Virus record (IMG/VR): IMGVR_UViG_3300046318_000393
Span: 1 to 28,732 of that record
DNA: 28,732 bases
DNA from: a virus
Reading direction: 5' to 3' (one strand)
Shown here: piece by piece, positions 5,319 to 19,496 of the stretch
Layout of the letters: each line of letters begins with the position of its first letter
How positions within the stretch are numbered: the stretch's first letter is position 1
The notes under the pieces: generated by a model
Databases searched by the model: none
The model's input: the letters and a program-made list of their open reading frames with translations, nothing else
Told to the model about the DNA's origin: nothing
Position numbers and translations under genes: made by a program

Positions 5319-6122
5319 TTACTTACTAACGTTGATCATGCCCTTGAATTCGCGCGGCACAATAATAGTGTTAATCTTACCTGCTTTTGCAGCTTCGGAA
5401 TAATTCAATTCAGCCTGTGCCTGAATGTAAGCGATAGATTGCGTTGAATTAGTAGCAAGTGCAGCCATACGTTCTGATTCAAGCTTTGCCAGTTTAACTT
5501 CGTTCTCTTTAATCTTGATTTCATTTTGTGACTTCACGTATTGAGTTGCAGCAGCAAGAATTTCTGCGTTAGGTTGCACGTTTCGAATTTGAACCAATGA
5601 TACACTAACTGATCCATCGAGCTTTTCTTCCTTTAGTGTGTTGGTAACAGTCTCGCGAATTTCACCTTCAATCTTTTGTCGATTGTCGGCAATTTCCAGT
5701 GACTTGTATTGTCGAACAGCTTTATAGGAAGCGTTATTAACTAGGGTAGTAATGTAGTTATACATCAGAAAAGTATCACCTTTATCAACTGCGTGGAATG
5801 CACGTGACTTAGTTGAATACAGTTCAGCTACACTAGAAGGATTAATGTTATATACAACAGTAATGTCAAAGTCGGCAAGTGCTGAATTGTCAGCAGTCAG
5901 CGGAGCTTTGTTCTCCAGAGTCACTGGAATGTCTTTTACTGGGAATGTAATAACTTCACCAACAAGAGTTTGATTCCATGAACCTGGCATCAGTTCCCCG
6001 CTTTGGATCTGTTTAGACATGTCTACTCTAATACCAACCTCACCCGTTTCAATACGAGTACAGGCCGCAGTTAGTGCAACCATTCCAGTAACCAAAGCCA
6101 ATTTCAAAATTCGAGTGTTCAT
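5319..6122 (-). CDS. SPFH/band-7 (prohibitin-like) lipoprotein
   Basis: This 267-residue protein has a signal peptide with a lipobox (LTAAC, Cys21), so a lipid-anchored envelope protein is expected. The body follows the prohibitin/band-7 plan: CTRIETGEVGIRVDMSKQ, a beta domain (ITFPVKDIPVTLENKAPLT, DFDITVVYNINP), then a long helical part (about 155-240) with EGEIRETVTNTLKEEKLDG, VQIRNVQPNAEILAAA and a coiled-coil rich in Lys/Glu/Ala. Band-7 proteins form membrane-associated rings and scaffold or regulate proteases such as FtsH. A phage copy may protect early proteins or reshape the membrane (inference). It has its own promoter inside the upstream small gene. Confidence 0.88.
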   Translation of the reverse strand: MNTRILKLALVTGMVALTAACTRIETGEVGIRVDMSKQIQSGELMPGSWNQTLVGEVITFPVKDIPVTLENKAPLTADNSALADFDITVVYNINPSSVAELYSTKSRAFHAVDKGDTFLMYNYITTLVNNASYKAVRQYKSLEIADNRQKIEGEIRETVTNTLKEEKLDGSVSVSLVQIRNVQPNAEILAAATQYVKSQNEIKIKENEVKLAKLESERMAALATNSTQSIAYIQAQAELNYSEAAKAGKINTIIVPREFKGMINVSK

Positions 6123-10631: not shown

Positions 10632-10865
10632 TTAGAACATTTTTTTAGGCAGACTATCATCGCGAAGTTTTTTATTCCATCGCGCTTTAGCAGCGCCTGC
10701 TTTACGTTTTCTAACCGTAGTAGGTTTTTCGTAAAACATTTTGCTACGTACTGTTTCTAAAATACCAGAATCTTCAACTTTTTGTTTAAATTTTCTAAGT
10801 GCAACATTCAGTGGCATGTCGCCTACGATTACTCTATTCCCTAACACTTTATTATTTTTGCTCAT
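10632..10865 (-). CDS. rpsU: Phage-encoded ribosomal protein bS21
   Basis: About 77 residues from the Met at 10865 ([12 protein letters not shown]); the frame is open five codons further, inside clpX. The bS21 family pattern is clear: [20 protein letters not shown], then [17 protein letters not shown], and a basic tail with AKARWNKKL. bS21 sits on the 30S platform near the anti-Shine-Dalgarno end of 16S rRNA and helps initiation. Phage copies are known in large phages and may replace the host protein to favour phage messages (inference). It overlaps the clpX end by 14 bases, so the two are co-expressed. Confidence 0.9.
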
Positions 10866-12081
10866 TTTTCTTCTTATCAAAAATCATTATAGCAGGATGC
10901 CCTTCTATAGTATCTTTAGTTATCCGAATTGACTTCAATCCGCGATCGACTAGTTCAACAGCATCAAATTGGTAAGGCAGCAATGTTTTCTCAATGATAT
11001 TCTTAAGTCCCCGTGCATTTGTCTTTAGTTCCTTTGCTTTTTCTGCAATAGATACCAAACTATCTTGGTCAAATGTTAATTCAATTCCATCTAATTCAAA
11101 TAGGTATTGGTATTGTTTGATCAAGCTATTTTTTGCATCTTTAAGTACTTCTACTAGTTGATCAGTAGTAAGTTCGTCGACATTTATATGCAATCCGAAT
11201 CGTCCTACAAATTCTGGAATAAGTCCATATTTAATTAAATCTTTTGTAGATGTGTGCTTATACCAGGATTCTGCATCATCTTTTTTAGAAACATCAGAGT
11301 GAAATCCAACACTTCTAGCATTCATTCTTTGTTGGATAATTTTATCAAGCCCGACAAATGCTCCGCCACAAATAAACAAGATGCTACGTGTATCAATTTC
11401 CTGCATATCGGACCCAGGATGTTTACGTTTGCCAGATGATGGAATTCGCATGATACTACCTTCGATCATTTTCAGCAACGCCTGCTGCACACCCTCTCCG
11501 CTTACATCTCGACTAATACTAACATTTTCTCCTTTTCTGGAAATCTTATCAATTTCGTCAATATAAACAATACCTCTACTGGCCTTTTCTATATCACCAT
11601 CTGATTCATTGATCAAGCGTGTAAGAATGCTTTCAACATCATCGCCTACATATCCTGCTTCAGTAATTCCTGTGGCATCACAAATGGCAAATGGCAAATC
11701 AAGATATTGTGCAATTTTCCGAGCCATCATAGTTTTGCCGCAGCCAGTTGGGCCTAACATTAATACATTTGTTTTCTCTAGTTCTATATCTTTACTAGGA
11801 TTATTAATGCGCTTGAAGTGCTGACTAACTGCTACACTCAGTGCAATTTTAGCATCATCTTGCCCGATAACATAATCGTCTAGGTAATCCTTGATTGCAA
11901 CTGGATTTAATAGTTTCTTCTCATTAGGAAAAGTTTTAACTTTATCGTCTTTAAGTATATCTTCACAAAGTTCAACGCAGTCATTACAAATGGCTGCATT
12001 TTCTCCAACGATTAACTTTTCTACTGCTTCTTTACTTTTGCCACAGAAATCGCAGATGTGTGAATTTTCAGTTTTTGCCAT
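10852..12081 (-). CDS. clpX: ClpX-type AAA+ unfoldase
   Basis: This 409-residue protein is close to full length (E. coli ClpX is 424). An N-terminal zinc domain has C10, C13, C32 and C35. The AAA+ core has Walker A GPTGCGKT (110-117), pore-1 loop GYVG (143-146), Walker B IVYIDEID (171-178), an RKH loop (219-221), a VGF sequence (258-260) where ClpX has its ClpP-docking IGF loop, and GLIPEFVGR with the arginine finger R294. All parts for substrate engagement and ClpP docking are present, so it could drive host ClpP. No ClpP gene is seen here. ClpX recognises the LAA end of tmRNA tags; this phage also encodes a tmRNA whose tag ends ALAA. Confidence 0.95.
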
Positions 12082-15310: not shown

Positions 15311-15340
15311 TTATATAAGAAAACCCGCCGAAGCGGGTTT
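15311..15340 (-). terminator. Intrinsic terminator of the outer-membrane protein gene
   Basis: AAACCCGC, a TTCG tetraloop (minus strand) and GCGGGTTT form an 8-bp G/C-rich stem, followed by TTCTTATAT. It lies 19 bases after the beta-barrel gene stop. The same core hairpin recurs at 18348-18363. Confidence 0.85.
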
Positions 15341-15358: not shown

Positions 15359-15808
15359 TTAGAACGAATACTTTAGTCCAGCAGTAACACGATTACCGTC
15401 GAACTGGCTAACTCGATCTTGTCCAATTTGATGAGTTAGATCGAGTGTAGCAGATACAGACTTGGTAACCGGCAAAGATACACCTGCACCTACTGTTAGT
15501 GCATATCCATCTACGCTTGCTTGATTATCAAGATATGCGCCACCGACTTTAACTGCAAGTGTTGCAGATCCAATCTTGGTAACATCATAACTACCGGTGA
15601 GACTGAATCGATCTTGATTATTTGTACCGCCGGTTGCACGATCAAACCCTAGCGTTGCACCAACTTGGCCGTACTTTTGGCCAACAGTTACTCCGAACGC
15701 TTCCCGATCTGCTCCTGAATAATCTTGAGCAGCAGTGACGCCGACTTCTAGTGCAGATGCTGCTGTAGCAGCCAAAACAATCAAAGATGCAATTGCAAAT
15801 TTCTTCAT
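15359..15808 (-). CDS. Outer-membrane beta-barrel protein with signal peptide
   Basis: This 149-residue protein starts with a clear Sec signal peptide (MKKFAIASLIVLAATAASAL; cleavage probably after ASA or ALE). The mature part of about 130 residues alternates polar and hydrophobic residues in about eight strands (FGVTVGQKYGQVGATLGF, FSLTGSYDVTK, ATLAVKVGGAYL, YALTVGAGVSLP, VSATLDLTHQIG, NRVTAGLKYSF). It ends in aromatic Phe, the signal read by the BAM machinery. This suits a small 8-stranded barrel placed in a Gram-negative outer membrane. It has its own strong promoter and terminator and so is expressed alone. In a phage it may alter the cell surface, for example by blocking superinfection (inference). 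Confidence 0.85.
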   Translation of the reverse strand: MKKFAIASLIVLAATAASALEVGVTAAQDYSGADREAFGVTVGQKYGQVGATLGFDRATGGTNNQDRFSLTGSYDVTKIGSATLAVKVGGAYLDNQASVDGYALTVGAGVSLPVTKSVSATLDLTHQIGQDRVSQFDGNRVTAGLKYSF

Positions 15809-15851
15809 ATTAAATTTTTCCTTTTAAAAAATGACTGTGTGTCATTCAATA

Positions 15852-15880
15852 AGTATATATGATTTATATATTCAGGTCAA
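15852..15880 (-). promoter_or_regulatory. Sigma70 promoter for the beta-barrel gene
   Basis: TTGACC (15875-15880), 17 bases, TATACT (15852-15857). The start is near 15845, with a leader of about 37 bases that contains AAAAGGA before the ATG. Confidence 0.82.
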
Positions 15881-15922: not shown

Positions 15923-16630
15923 TCAAGACTTTTTCATTATGCTCATGATTGCCGAAAATGTATCGTGTCGATTGTCTAACCCGTGTAATCCTGAATTAAT
16001 AGGTTTAGTAACTGCGGCAGTATCGTTAAAGTTTGTTACCTTAGGCTGAACACGAGTTTGCCAAAACCACACAGCCACTTTAGCAGCAACATCTGGACGT
16101 TCTACTAATTCTGGATGTTTTTCTAAAGGTAACCCTAGTGCTTGCCCTGCTCGCGCATAATTATCTCTGCCAGTTAATTGTATGTAACCGCGTCCATGGT
16201 ACTTTACACCATCACCTGTTACCTTGTTTCCTAATATTTTTGCCAGACGCGGATTTGATTTTGGTTCGTATTTTTTAAAATCTAATTTGCCACCTTTTTC
16301 AACCATATGTGTAAAGTTAGCAGTTTCGTGTGCACATTGGGCAACAAATTGAGCTAACTCGGCACCCTTTAACCCTGCTTTTACACCTGCGGAAATTAAT
16401 GCCTTGGCTTGTGGTTTAAGGATGGTCTGAACAACTTTTTTTGTATCTACTGCTGTTTTTTGAACAGCAGGTTGTTGCTTTAATATAGGGTCTTTTGTCG
16501 GAGCTTGAGCAGCATTACTACCAATTGCTGCGGCGCCTAGTGCTGCGCCTGCTACCCAGTCTTTCCACCCTTCTTCTACAGAAGTATTTTGACTGGCATC
16601 GAAAATATTGATAAACTCTGTTGCTCTCAT
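15923..16630 (-). CDS. GH19 chitinase-like lysozyme with MRAxEFI N-terminus
   Basis: This 235-residue protein has a C-terminal GH19 glycosidase domain (about 65-235). The catalytic acid is E102 in AQCAHETANF, a second Glu is E111, and the substrate-cleft motif is YHGRGYIQLTGRDNYARAG (144-162). In phages this family cleaves peptidoglycan. The N-terminus reads MRATEFINIFDASQ, followed by a hydrophobic Ala-rich stretch (WVAGAALGAAAIGS) and a Pro/Lys/Thr linker. The same opening MRAxEFI is found on the two genes upstream, and it resembles the T4 capsid-targeting peptide MKTYQEFI. It could therefore be an ordinary endolysin or a head-packaged enzyme. The start overlaps the previous stop by four bases. 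Confidence 0.87.
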   Translation of the reverse strand: MRATEFINIFDASQNTSVEEGWKDWVAGAALGAAAIGSNAAQAPTKDPILKQQPAVQKTAVDTKKVVQTILKPQAKALISAGVKAGLKGAELAQFVAQCAHETANFTHMVEKGGKLDFKKYEPKSNPRLAKILGNKVTGDGVKYHGRGYIQLTGRDNYARAGQALGLPLEKHPELVERPDVAAKVAVWFWQTRVQPKVTNFNDTAAVTKPINSGLHGLDNRHDTFSAIMSIMKKS

Positions 16631-17574
16631 TGTGCAGTTCCTGGATCAAATAATGGACCTGATACCCAATTACCAGATTCACTGAATACGCCCATGCTTA
16701 ATTGTTTAATCATTTCGGGTGTAATATATTTTCTACGATTGGCGTTACGGAAAAAGATGTTTACTGGAATAGGTTCGTCGCCTTTCATCTGTATCCATTT
16801 TTTCATACGATTTCGACCTTCGTGTGATCTGACCTTGGCTTCATTGGCAAAGTCACCATCTTCCCATTCTTTGGGTTCTTGAATGTCTAAGAAAGGATAA
16901 GCAATCTTACCTCCCTTTTCCATATGCTGTGCTACTTCTGGATTCTCTGCATTAGCAGTTAATGGTGCTGCTAATCGCATGAACATGCTAGGACGCATCT
17001 TAACCTGTATGCCAAAGTAATCTACATCAGTGCCTTGTGGTGTGCTACCCCAACCTTGTGGGTCAAGTTCTGCCTCGTCTAACTCGGGCGACCAGTGCAA
17101 TGACTTGCTGCCCTTTGCTACTGGTTTAAACCCATGCCCTTTGTAAAACTTGGTCAATTTGGCTTGACTAACTTGTCCTTTGTCCCATGGGAATAGTGTT
17201 AGGCTGATTCCATCTTCCCTGGCTAGCTGCTGCAACTCTCTCATTGCTTTTGTACCAACGCCTTGCCGCAATGGATAAGCTTGTATCCATTTTACTTCCA
17301 CTGCACCACGTTTAGACAAACTAGGAACTAACTCAAACACTGCCATTTGCTGGTCCTCACCTTCGCCCCATAGCATTACGTGATTGTTCTGCCACATGGT
17401 TGGATATTTTGCATACACTTTTTCTATCCAAGCTTTTGCTGCTGCATTTCCACTAGTGGATAGTTTTATAACTGGCTGTTCATCTTCGTTAACACGATTA
17501 ATGCACTCTTTGACTCTGGAATCAGGTCCACTAATCTTAATGGTTTCTTCTTTAATAAATTCTGCTGCTCTCAT
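16627..17574 (-). CDS. GNAT acetyltransferase with extra C-terminal domain
   Basis: This 315-residue protein has three parts. MRAAEFIKEE opens it and ends in I-x-E, which fits the T4 head-protease cleavage rule. A GNAT domain (about 38-162) has the acetyl-CoA loop RQGVGT (103-108) and the closing FYKGHGFKPV (143-152). A C-terminal domain (about 175-315) contains DVDYFGIQVKMRPSMFMRL and AKVRSHEGRNRMKKW, which recalls the HEGRHR-type motif of ParB-like or toxin-associated domains. GNAT enzymes acetylate proteins, tRNA or small molecules; the target is unknown. Four-base overlaps on both sides join it to the lysozyme and the kinase-like gene. A packaged effector is a reasonable idea but unproved. 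Confidence 0.8.
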   Translation of the reverse strand: MRAAEFIKEETIKISGPDSRVKECINRVNEDEQPVIKLSTSGNAAAKAWIEKVYAKYPTMWQNNHVMLWGEGEDQQMAVFELVPSLSKRGAVEVKWIQAYPLRQGVGTKAMRELQQLAREDGISLTLFPWDKGQVSQAKLTKFYKGHGFKPVAKGSKSLHWSPELDEAELDPQGWGSTPQGTDVDYFGIQVKMRPSMFMRLAAPLTANAENPEVAQHMEKGGKIAYPFLDIQEPKEWEDGDFANEAKVRSHEGRNRMKKWIQMKGDEPIPVNIFFRNANRRKYITPEMIKQLSMGVFSESGNWVSGPLFDPGTAQ

Positions 17575-18326
17575 CTATCAGTCCCTGTAAAGAATGGGTC
17601 GTTAATAACAATATTCCCGTCGCTACCTAACATAAAGTTGCCAGTGTGAAGGTCAAACCTATAACCTCTTCTTAACGAGATGCGCTGCAAGTCTTTCATT
17701 GTAATAATCAAATCTGATAGCTGATCTACTCCGCCTATGTATAAAATGAATTGTGCAAATTCTTCGTCATCACCCCAACCATCTATATCATGTTCTATCT
17801 GCTGTTCTATATAGTCGATAATAAACCCAGCTGGTCTATGAAGCAAACTTTCAATAGTTTCTAACGGTAGTGACAAGTATGAAGAATGTTTCTGGTTTAT
17901 TTCAAATAACCTTTCGCACCCAATTTTTAAATAATGTCGACCTTTGAATTCAAATTGTTCTATTCCTGTAAACTCTGGCAAAAATAAGTTGTTCGGATGA
18001 GCCATACAATAATTGGCAAAATCAATAAATGATTGTTGACCTTTAGTATAACTGCCCGCAGCTGATCCTTCTTCGGATCCGAATATCTTTAAAATAGTGC
18101 CGTCAGGAGCCAGGAATACATCTTGATCTACGCCTGAATCTAAGAATTTGTATCCCTGTTGTTCAAAGGCAGAACGAACATCAGGGTCCATAAAAGCTTC
18201 TTTGATACTTGGTTGCAGCCCTTTTGTTAATATGCTTTTTAGACCATAAGCTTGATTAGGCAAATAACTGGCATGGTATACATACTCACTAGCTTGATTT
18301 TTGGTAATAAATTCTTTTGCTCGCAT
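17571..18326 (-). CDS. Kinase-like protein with MRAxEFI N-terminus
   Basis: This 251-residue protein opens MRAKEFITKN, followed by YVYHASYLPNQAYGLKSILT (about 16-34), which resembles the first strand and helix of ADP-ribosyltransferase-type folds but is too short for a whole domain. From about 55 it has kinase-like features: FLAPDGTILKIFG with a candidate ATP lysine K80, a catalytic loop FDLHTGN (D225, N230) and a metal-binding D243 in IVINDPFF. This DLHxGN...DP pattern is that of phosphotransferases related to aminoglycoside kinases and protein kinases. No Shine-Dalgarno motif is evident before the ATG. It sits first in a three-gene overlapping set. The true target is unknown. Confidence 0.75.
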   Translation of the reverse strand: MRAKEFITKNQASEYVYHASYLPNQAYGLKSILTKGLQPSIKEAFMDPDVRSAFEQQGYKFLDSGVDQDVFLAPDGTILKIFGSEEGSAAGSYTKGQQSFIDFANYCMAHPNNLFLPEFTGIEQFEFKGRHYLKIGCERLFEINQKHSSYLSLPLETIESLLHRPAGFIIDYIEQQIEHDIDGWGDDEEFAQFILYIGGVDQLSDLIITMKDLQRISLRRGYRFDLHTGNFMLGSDGNIVINDPFFTGTDR

Positions 18327-18465: not shown

Positions 18466-19125
18466 ATGTTTTTACCATATGTGTACATCGTGAGAAATCG
18501 AAAAACAAAACAATTTTATATAGGCATGAGGTCTGCTAATAAAGTGATTGCAGAACAGGATTTAGGAGTTAATTATTTTACTTCATCCATACGTGTGAAA
18601 AATAATTTTTCAGAATATGACACAGAAATAGTAGCGTATTTCGTTGACCAAATATCAGCATTTGAATTTGAAAATGATCTAATAAAAGAGCATTGGGGAA
18701 ATCCATTGTTGTTGAATAGACATTACCAAAAATCAATGTCTAAATTTTCAATGGCTGGTTCCAAAAGAGAAGATTTAGCAGAGTATAATAGAAAAGCAAA
18801 AACGAAACCAAAAGAGGAACGAACTTATAAATGTGCTATTTGTGAAAATGTTTTCACTAGATTAGAATTTTGCCATTATCCAAAAAAAGAAAATCCTGTA
18901 TGTGGGCAAAAATGCAATGGGGTTCGCAACGGAAAAATGTCTGCAGGAAAGCCTAACTTAAAAATAAGTCAAAGTAGAACCGGTAAATCATCTTGGAATA
19001 AAGGTAAAAAGGGCACTGGATTCGGTGATCCAAATCTAAATCCGATGAAGAATCCGGATATTGTTAAAAAGATGTTAGCGGCTAGAAAACTCAATAGAGA
19101 GAAAAAGAGGGGCATTGGCTTATAA
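18466..19125 (+). CDS. GIY-YIG homing endonuclease inserted in the tmRNA gene
   Basis: A 219-residue plus-strand protein among minus-strand genes. The N-terminal nuclease domain has YVYIVRN...QFYIGMR (about 5-22), the GIY-YIG pair, and a Glu in the helix FEFENDLIKEHW. A cysteine cluster (YKCAICENVF, about 121-130, then CHYPKKENPVCGQKC) looks like a zinc finger. The basic tail has SSWNKGKKGTG and NPMKNPDI, a NUMOD3-like DNA-binding repeat. It has an AAAGGA site before its ATG and a GATAAATA box further up. Its last codons form one arm of the tmRNA terminator, so its 3' end is shared with the tmRNA unit. It would cut an empty ssrA allele and copy itself in. Confidence 0.9.
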   Translation: MFLPYVYIVRNRKTKQFYIGMRSANKVIAEQDLGVNYFTSSIRVKNNFSEYDTEIVAYFVDQISAFEFENDLIKEHWGNPLLLNRHYQKSMSKFSMAGSKREDLAEYNRKAKTKPKEERTYKCAICENVFTRLEFCHYPKKENPVCGQKCNGVRNGKMSAGKPNLKISQSRTGKSSWNKGKKGTGFGDPNLNPMKNPDIVKKMLAARKLNREKKRGIGL

Positions 19126-19135
19126 GGCGCCCCTC
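19101..19135 (-). terminator. Intrinsic terminator of the tmRNA
   Basis: On the minus strand GAGGGGC (19135-19129), a 15-base loop and GCCCCTC (19113-19107) are followed by TTTTT. It lies about ten bases after the tag stop and is built from the end of the convergent endonuclease gene. Confidence 0.9.
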
Positions 19136-19144
19136 AAACCTCAT

Positions 19145-19180
19145 TTAGGCTGCAAGAGCCCAAACAGCGTCATTGGCTGC
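19145..19180 (-). other. tmRNA tag reading frame (AANDAVWALAA)
   Basis: From a GCA resume codon at 19180 the frame reads AANDAVWALAA then TAA. E. coli tags with AANDENYALAA, identical at eight of eleven positions, including the AAND start and the ALAA end that ClpX and SspB read. The tryptophan is unusual. The last eight codons appear to be a recoded replacement of the relic at 18406-18432. Confidence 0.9.
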
Positions 19181-19266
19181 ATTTACTTTGTTTTCTTCTT
19201 TTTACATCGTTGCTGATGTGCTGTCCACTCCGCTACTCTTTGCCCTGTCGAAACCATGGCAGGCCC

Positions 19267-19357
19267 ATTATAAAACACACTATGTGGAATCGAACCACTG
19301 ACCCTTTCACTCCGAAGAGACCGTGCAATACGCTTAGTCGCCGACTAGTATGCTTTA
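19267..19357 (-). other. tRNA-like intervening segment of the permuted tmRNA
   Basis: Between the CCA end and the coding piece, 91 bases contain a 7-bp acceptor-like stem (CATACTA at 19352-19346 with TAGTGTG at 19282-19276) directly joined to a T-arm (AGTGG-TTCGATT-CCACA, one mismatch). I could not form a D arm or anticodon arm; instead there are hairpins TAGTC/GACTA and CTC-TTCG-GAG. It is not a standard tRNA but could attract tRNA-processing enzymes that remove the segment. Confidence 0.6.
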
Positions 19358-19437
19358 TGGTGGACCTGGCGGGAGTCGAACCCGCGTCCAGAACACTTTT
19401 CTCTTTGCTTCATACAGCAATATTTGGTTGTTTATTT

Positions 19438-19466
19438 ATTATACTGTAACTTTATTCGTATGTCAA
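19438..19466 (-). promoter_or_regulatory. Perfect consensus sigma70 promoter for the tmRNA
   Basis: TTGACA (19461-19466), 17 bases, TATAAT (19438-19443). The start would be near 19431, some 40 bases before the T arm of the acceptor piece. An exact consensus suits a highly expressed RNA. Confidence 0.9.
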
Positions 19467-19496
19467 TGCGTTTAAATAATGAGTAAGGAAAGTAAA

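Follow-up and report, generated by a model that had tools for sequence, protein, structure and literature searches.

Outer-membrane beta-barrels encoded by phages are already known as a kind of protein. Lom of phage lambda (Ail/Lom family, PF06316) is such a barrel; it alters the host surface and has been termed a lysogenic conversion protein (PMC9836094). Cor, also phage-encoded, acts on FhuA (PMC11436027). Cyanophages carry another outer-membrane-like barrel, Phage_OMP (PF24653 / phrog_417), which is annotated DUF680. Its member in P-SSM4 matches 416 cyanophage and marine phage records, and BFVD contains many phage outer-membrane barrels, which contradicts the view, given in a preliminary description of the present DNA, that a phage genome seldom has a complete outer-membrane protein. 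The eight-stranded barrel is also the fold of the N-terminal domain of OmpA and OprF, of NspA and of OmpW.

The DNA analysed here is a stretch of 28,732 nucleotides (the window) from a large phage of freshwater type. It carries a barrel gene of its own, for which the following features were found by computation.

15852 to 15880, minus strand: sigma70-type promoter, TTGACC-17-TATACT
15829 to 15847, minus strand: 5' hairpin GAATGAC-ACACA-GTCATTT at the predicted 5' end of the mRNA
15813 to 15821, minus strand: ribosome-binding site region of the barrel gene, AAAGGAAAA
15359 to 15808, minus strand: barrel gene, an ORF of 149 aa for a predicted eight-stranded outer-membrane beta-barrel protein
15752 to 15808, minus strand: Sec signal peptide, residues 1-19, with predicted cleavage between ASA and LE (from sequence and conservation)
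15359 to 15388, minus strand: C-terminal strand VTAGLKYSF and stop codon, with the pattern Hyd(-9,-7,-5)-Tyr(-3)-Phe(-1)
15321 to 15340, minus strand: intrinsic terminator AAACCCGCTTCGGCGGGTTT followed by TCTT, -12.7 kcal/mol, z -4.0

The ORF starts with ATG, its ribosome-binding site is AAAAGGAA and its signal peptide reads MKKFAIASLIVLAATAASA. Like Phage_OMP, the product is a small barrel with a signal peptide, ends in KYxF and is encoded by a single gene amid accessory genes, near glutaredoxin; Phage_OMP differs in its cyanobacterial hosts. The window protein scores 12.1 bits against the Phage_OMP cut-off of 27, and 2 of 57 family members reach E<=0.01. When the profiles of the two families are compared, only the last 42 columns align, with a probability of 93%, and so a common origin is possible. 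For YfaZ (PF07437), 49 of the 57 members reach E<=0.01, the best at 2.2e-8. The window scores 19.3 bits against a cut-off of 23 and the matching relatives, scored singly, 19.6-22.9, in a comparison that left out this strongest member. The YfaZ model is also longer (180), and the family matches it only to about position 120. YfaZ and OMP_b-brl are both weak Pfam matches, below the cut-off for the window and for the singly scored relatives; the Pfam scan of the window protein gave no family above its cut-off, and no match of the barrel family to Lom (PF06316) appeared in the Pfam scans. When compared with OmpA/OprF, NspA and OmpW, the phage barrel shows 12-17% identity, has shorter loops and lacks a periplasmic domain. 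The best viral structure match in BFVD is A0A6J5QDA5 from an uncultured Caudovirales phage (50% identity, TM 0.88). This near full-length match belongs to the same family, which was thus already public under the automatic name 'Outer membrane autotransporter barrel'. The name is misleading, since its 147 residues leave no space for a passenger domain.

IMG/VR contigs were scanned for relatives twice, first using the window protein as query and then a seven-sequence alignment, and of the 100 matches that the second scan reported 80 were retained. The two scans yielded 58 distinct homologous proteins with 41-68% identity to the window protein. Each of 16 contigs of 102-356 kb has exactly one copy of the barrel gene, and 7 of them have a T4-type gp23 capsid gene. 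We therefore assign the gene to the phage and not to contaminating host DNA. The median dN/dS computed over 219 homologue pairs is 0.30, which indicates purifying selection and hence maintenance of the protein. Scans of 84,980 prokaryote genomes for short peptide patterns, which distant homologues can escape, gave no relative; two pattern-guided scans of prokaryote genomes matched 266 and 538 stretches, none of them encoding a relative. Plasmids gave no relative, isolated phages gave no tblastn match to three family members, and the anti-phage defence library gave no match. With no host homologue within reach of these pattern scans, the idea that the gene was recently copied from a host is rejected. 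The family is uncharacterised and widespread in large aquatic phages, many of which carry it once per genome with its control signals conserved.

The preliminary description had proposed a signal peptide, about eight alternating strands and a terminal Phe, all of which are borne out. In an alignment of 57 homologues, A19 of the signal peptide is invariant and A17 nearly so. All 58 distinct homologues have the C-terminal Phe, although 3 of these read Phe-Arg, and the pattern at the C-terminus of the window protein is that of the classical outer-membrane signature. An AlphaFold2 model built from 57 sequences (mean pLDDT 89.5, pTM 0.79) has exactly eight strands, at residues 20-29, 35-46, 49-59, 65-79, 82-95, 101-113, 118-129 and 138-148. 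With inward and outward residues assigned from strand alternation, the outward ones have a mean hydrophobicity of +1.28 and the inward ones are polar at -0.88, so that the predicted structure is a closed amphipathic transmembrane barrel. A sequence search against solved structures gave nothing significant. Structure comparison by VIA-align matched the model to solved outer-membrane barrels in PDB with Z up to 18.4, among them OprF at Z 17.9 (1.8 A over 121 residues), NspA at Z 17.6 (2.3 A over 134 residues), OmpA at Z 17.2 (2.1 A over 123 residues) and OmpW at Z 16.9. Two findings had been named in advance as speaking against a barrel in the outer membrane, namely a predicted structure without a barrel and closest relatives among virion proteins. 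Neither applies, as the barrel is predicted and the nearest matches are annotated as outer-membrane proteins. The predicted residence in the outer membrane of the host is very probable.

The lumen carries conserved charges (E21, D29, R35, D56, R67, D75, K87, D123 and K146). The extracellular loops have about 5 residues each except L4 (130-137), whose motif QxGQDRVxxFDGN ranks among the most conserved segments of the family. When pooled, the loops show somewhat weaker conservation than the strands, with a mean entropy of 1.86 bits compared with 1.32. The loops are short and show no fast evolution, and together with the conserved L4 this points to a constant partner more than to an arms race with receptors. 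Outer-membrane enzymes of the PagL/PagP kind, which are among the fold matches, were rejected, as the family columns have no conserved His/Ser catalytic pattern.

The gene was also described as an isolated transcription unit, and this agrees with what was found. The -35 hexamer TTGACC lies at 15880-15875 and the -10 hexamer TATACT at 15857-15852, with 10 of 12 consensus positions matched. The terminator stem (15340-15321), for which 0 of 200 shuffles were as good, lies just beyond the span 15359-15880 that the preliminary description covered. Promoters of at least 10/12 are kept in 36 of 57 family loci compared with 3.8 in shuffles, those of at least 11/12 in 25 of 57 compared with 0.1, and terminators in 47 of 57 compared with 0.3. 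Both signals are present in 34 of the 57 loci under the criteria used here.

At 34 of the 36 family promoters, a hairpin begins 1-7 nt past the -10 hexamer. A separate count found it at 31 of 32 barrel promoters, where the chance rate is 0.17 per promoter; other promoter-like sites have a hairpin in 43 of 231 cases. The hairpin of the window is not significant by itself (16 of 200 shuffles were as good), and so it is the family on which the case for the element depends. For L039, L075 and L085, ARAGORN gives a tmRNA span that includes the upstream hairpin; it was excluded as a leader and stands outside the promoter-based count. The stem pairs differ between loci while the pairing is kept (ATGAC/GTCAT, ACTGT/ACAGT, AAGTC/GACTT and GCATCCTATA/TGTAGGATGC), which speaks for an element in the RNA rather than for one site bound by a protein, though the commonest stem, ATGAC/GTCAT, could also act as an operator. 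A 5'-terminal stem-loop is described as stabilising mRNA in E. coli in the part of PMC7509114 that cites Emory et al. 1992. Two other genes on the minus strand of the window, for peroxiredoxin (1015-1554) and for a band-7/SPFH lipoprotein (5319-6122), have a sigma70-type promoter and then, where the transcript is predicted to start, a hairpin, and so do their relatives. The device is therefore not unique to the barrel gene. Six gp23 capsid genes have no sigma70-type promoter directly upstream and so differ in promoter class from the barrel gene. The T4-type late promoter TATAAATA is not enriched over its reversed control; hence these phages yielded no late promoter class for use in timing. From the promoter consensus only, we infer that the barrel gene may be expressed early.

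The barrel gene of the window has a promoter and a terminator of its own, as expected for a "moron" gene, and we give a probability of roughly 0.6 to the reading that it is an autonomous accessory gene of this type, whose product would be inserted in the host outer membrane and alter the surface. It would then probably belong to a larger set of small phage genes by which the surface of the host is remodelled. That its role is accessory and host-modifying, instead of one in the virion or in lysis, is likely. In the proposed mechanism, a unit of promoter, 5' mRNA hairpin, ribosome-binding site, barrel gene and terminator would be transcribed by the RNA polymerase of the host, directed by the housekeeping sigma factor, and the 5'-terminal hairpin would probably shield the mRNA, by analogy with the ompA leader. 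Sec would export the precursor, the signal peptide would then be cleaved, and the BAM machinery would insert the barrel through its C-terminal Phe signature. Both this insertion and the function of the barrel are what we infer. The mature protein of about 130 residues, with four short loops and a charged polar lumen, would then lie in the outer membrane of the infected cell. The likeliest benefit would be an altered cell surface during infection, most plausibly one that shields against or excludes competing phages. A phage of virulent type would thus invest in the outer membrane of its host through an independent and apparently strong transcription unit, and the gene offers a clear, small target for work on exclusion, permeability and envelope roles.

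Among the possible roles, receptor shielding or exclusion most plausibly leads by analogy, because phage-encoded surface proteins such as Cor are known to act in this way, and envelope maintenance comes next, not far behind. Exclusion specifically is a tentative assignment. The preliminary description had suggested blocked receptors, altered permeability or masking of the infected cell, all of which are candidate roles. According to the envelope reading, a narrow OmpA/OmpW-like barrel would keep the outer membrane stable or let small solutes through, and would be needed while envelope synthesis of the host fails during a long jumbo-phage infection. The nearest folds, OprF, OmpA, NspA and OmpW, are consistent with this, the charged lumen and the short loops, both conserved, resemble those of a structural barrel, and stress genes (peroxiredoxin, rubrerythrin-like) lie near several relatives. 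However, the lumen appears to be plugged by the conserved charges rather than open, and the protein has neither a transport motif nor an OmpA-type periplasmic peptidoglycan-binding domain; we consider this role unlikely.

The neighbours of the barrel gene are mainly accessory genes, for tmRNA, ribonucleotide reductase, glutaredoxin, peroxiredoxin and a ClpX-like protein. In the window, the next gene upstream encodes a GH19-type endolysin (15923-16630), which would suit a barrel that helps to disrupt or fuse the outer membrane as infection ends; co-transfer of Lom and holin genes has been reported as well, with a suggested link to lysis (PMC9836094). This lysis role is nevertheless very improbable: endolysin is absent from the listed conserved neighbour families, the barrel gene has its own promoter and terminator, and its product has no spanin-like coil, lipobox or transmembrane helix. 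A virion component, for which one could cite that beta-rich phage proteins are common and that these phages are large, with few of their virion proteins known, is rejected as scarcely credible in view of the signal peptide, the C-terminal signature, the amphipathic barrel fold, the closest BFVD entries annotated as outer-membrane proteins and the mainly metabolic neighbours.

Apart from the accessory reading of the barrel gene itself, its association with a tmRNA gene was considered. To our knowledge, a tmRNA adjoining an outer-membrane protein gene is undescribed. The window contains the following feature.

19100 to 19473, minus strand: permuted (two-piece) tmRNA gene, RF04321 117.7 bits

Its tag is AANDAVWALAA, and it lies upstream of the barrel gene at a distance of about 3.3 kb. 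Among 53 loci listed by hand, 39 have a permuted tmRNA upstream of the barrel gene on the same strand, with a gap of at most 150 bp in 19 and at most 1 kb in 27; none of these 53 was reported with a tmRNA downstream. Between the two genes, the barrel promoter often comes directly after a terminator, which suggests that they are transcribed separately. That they form a conserved functional pair instead of being chance neighbours, with trans-translation by the phage tmRNA and the barrel acting together, for example to manage both ribosome rescue and the state of the envelope in long infections, is an improbable idea. Permuted tmRNAs as such are already known from aquatic phages (PMC9004378).

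Several further observations were made around the tmRNA. A 39-base stretch of the window tmRNA matches Bacillus phage G at 95%, and the opposite strand carries an ORF (18466-19125) that extends into the 3' side of the tmRNA gene. Phage tmRNAs whose tags are unusually long, at 23-31 residues, such as ANADTFDFSAMSFTGNSVTGASKFALAA, occur in L004, L045, L048, L051, L063 and L065 and likewise in L066, L067, L069, L071, L072 and L073. Lengths differ by multiples of three, and changes at third codon positions leave the peptide intact, a pattern which suggests that selection acts on the tag. The window also encodes a ClpX homologue with a zinc finger and an AAA domain (10852-12081, minus strand), which together with the tmRNA suggests phage control over the degradation of tagged proteins. 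The gene at 17571-18326 (minus strand) has a weak match to the T7-type protein kinase/host transcription inhibitor phrog_15752 (E 4.9e-9). Finally, tRNAs with a CTA anticodon, named 'Pyl' by ARAGORN, are found near the barrel gene in L010, L011, L013, L031, L048 and L062, and these are possible amber-reading tRNAs.
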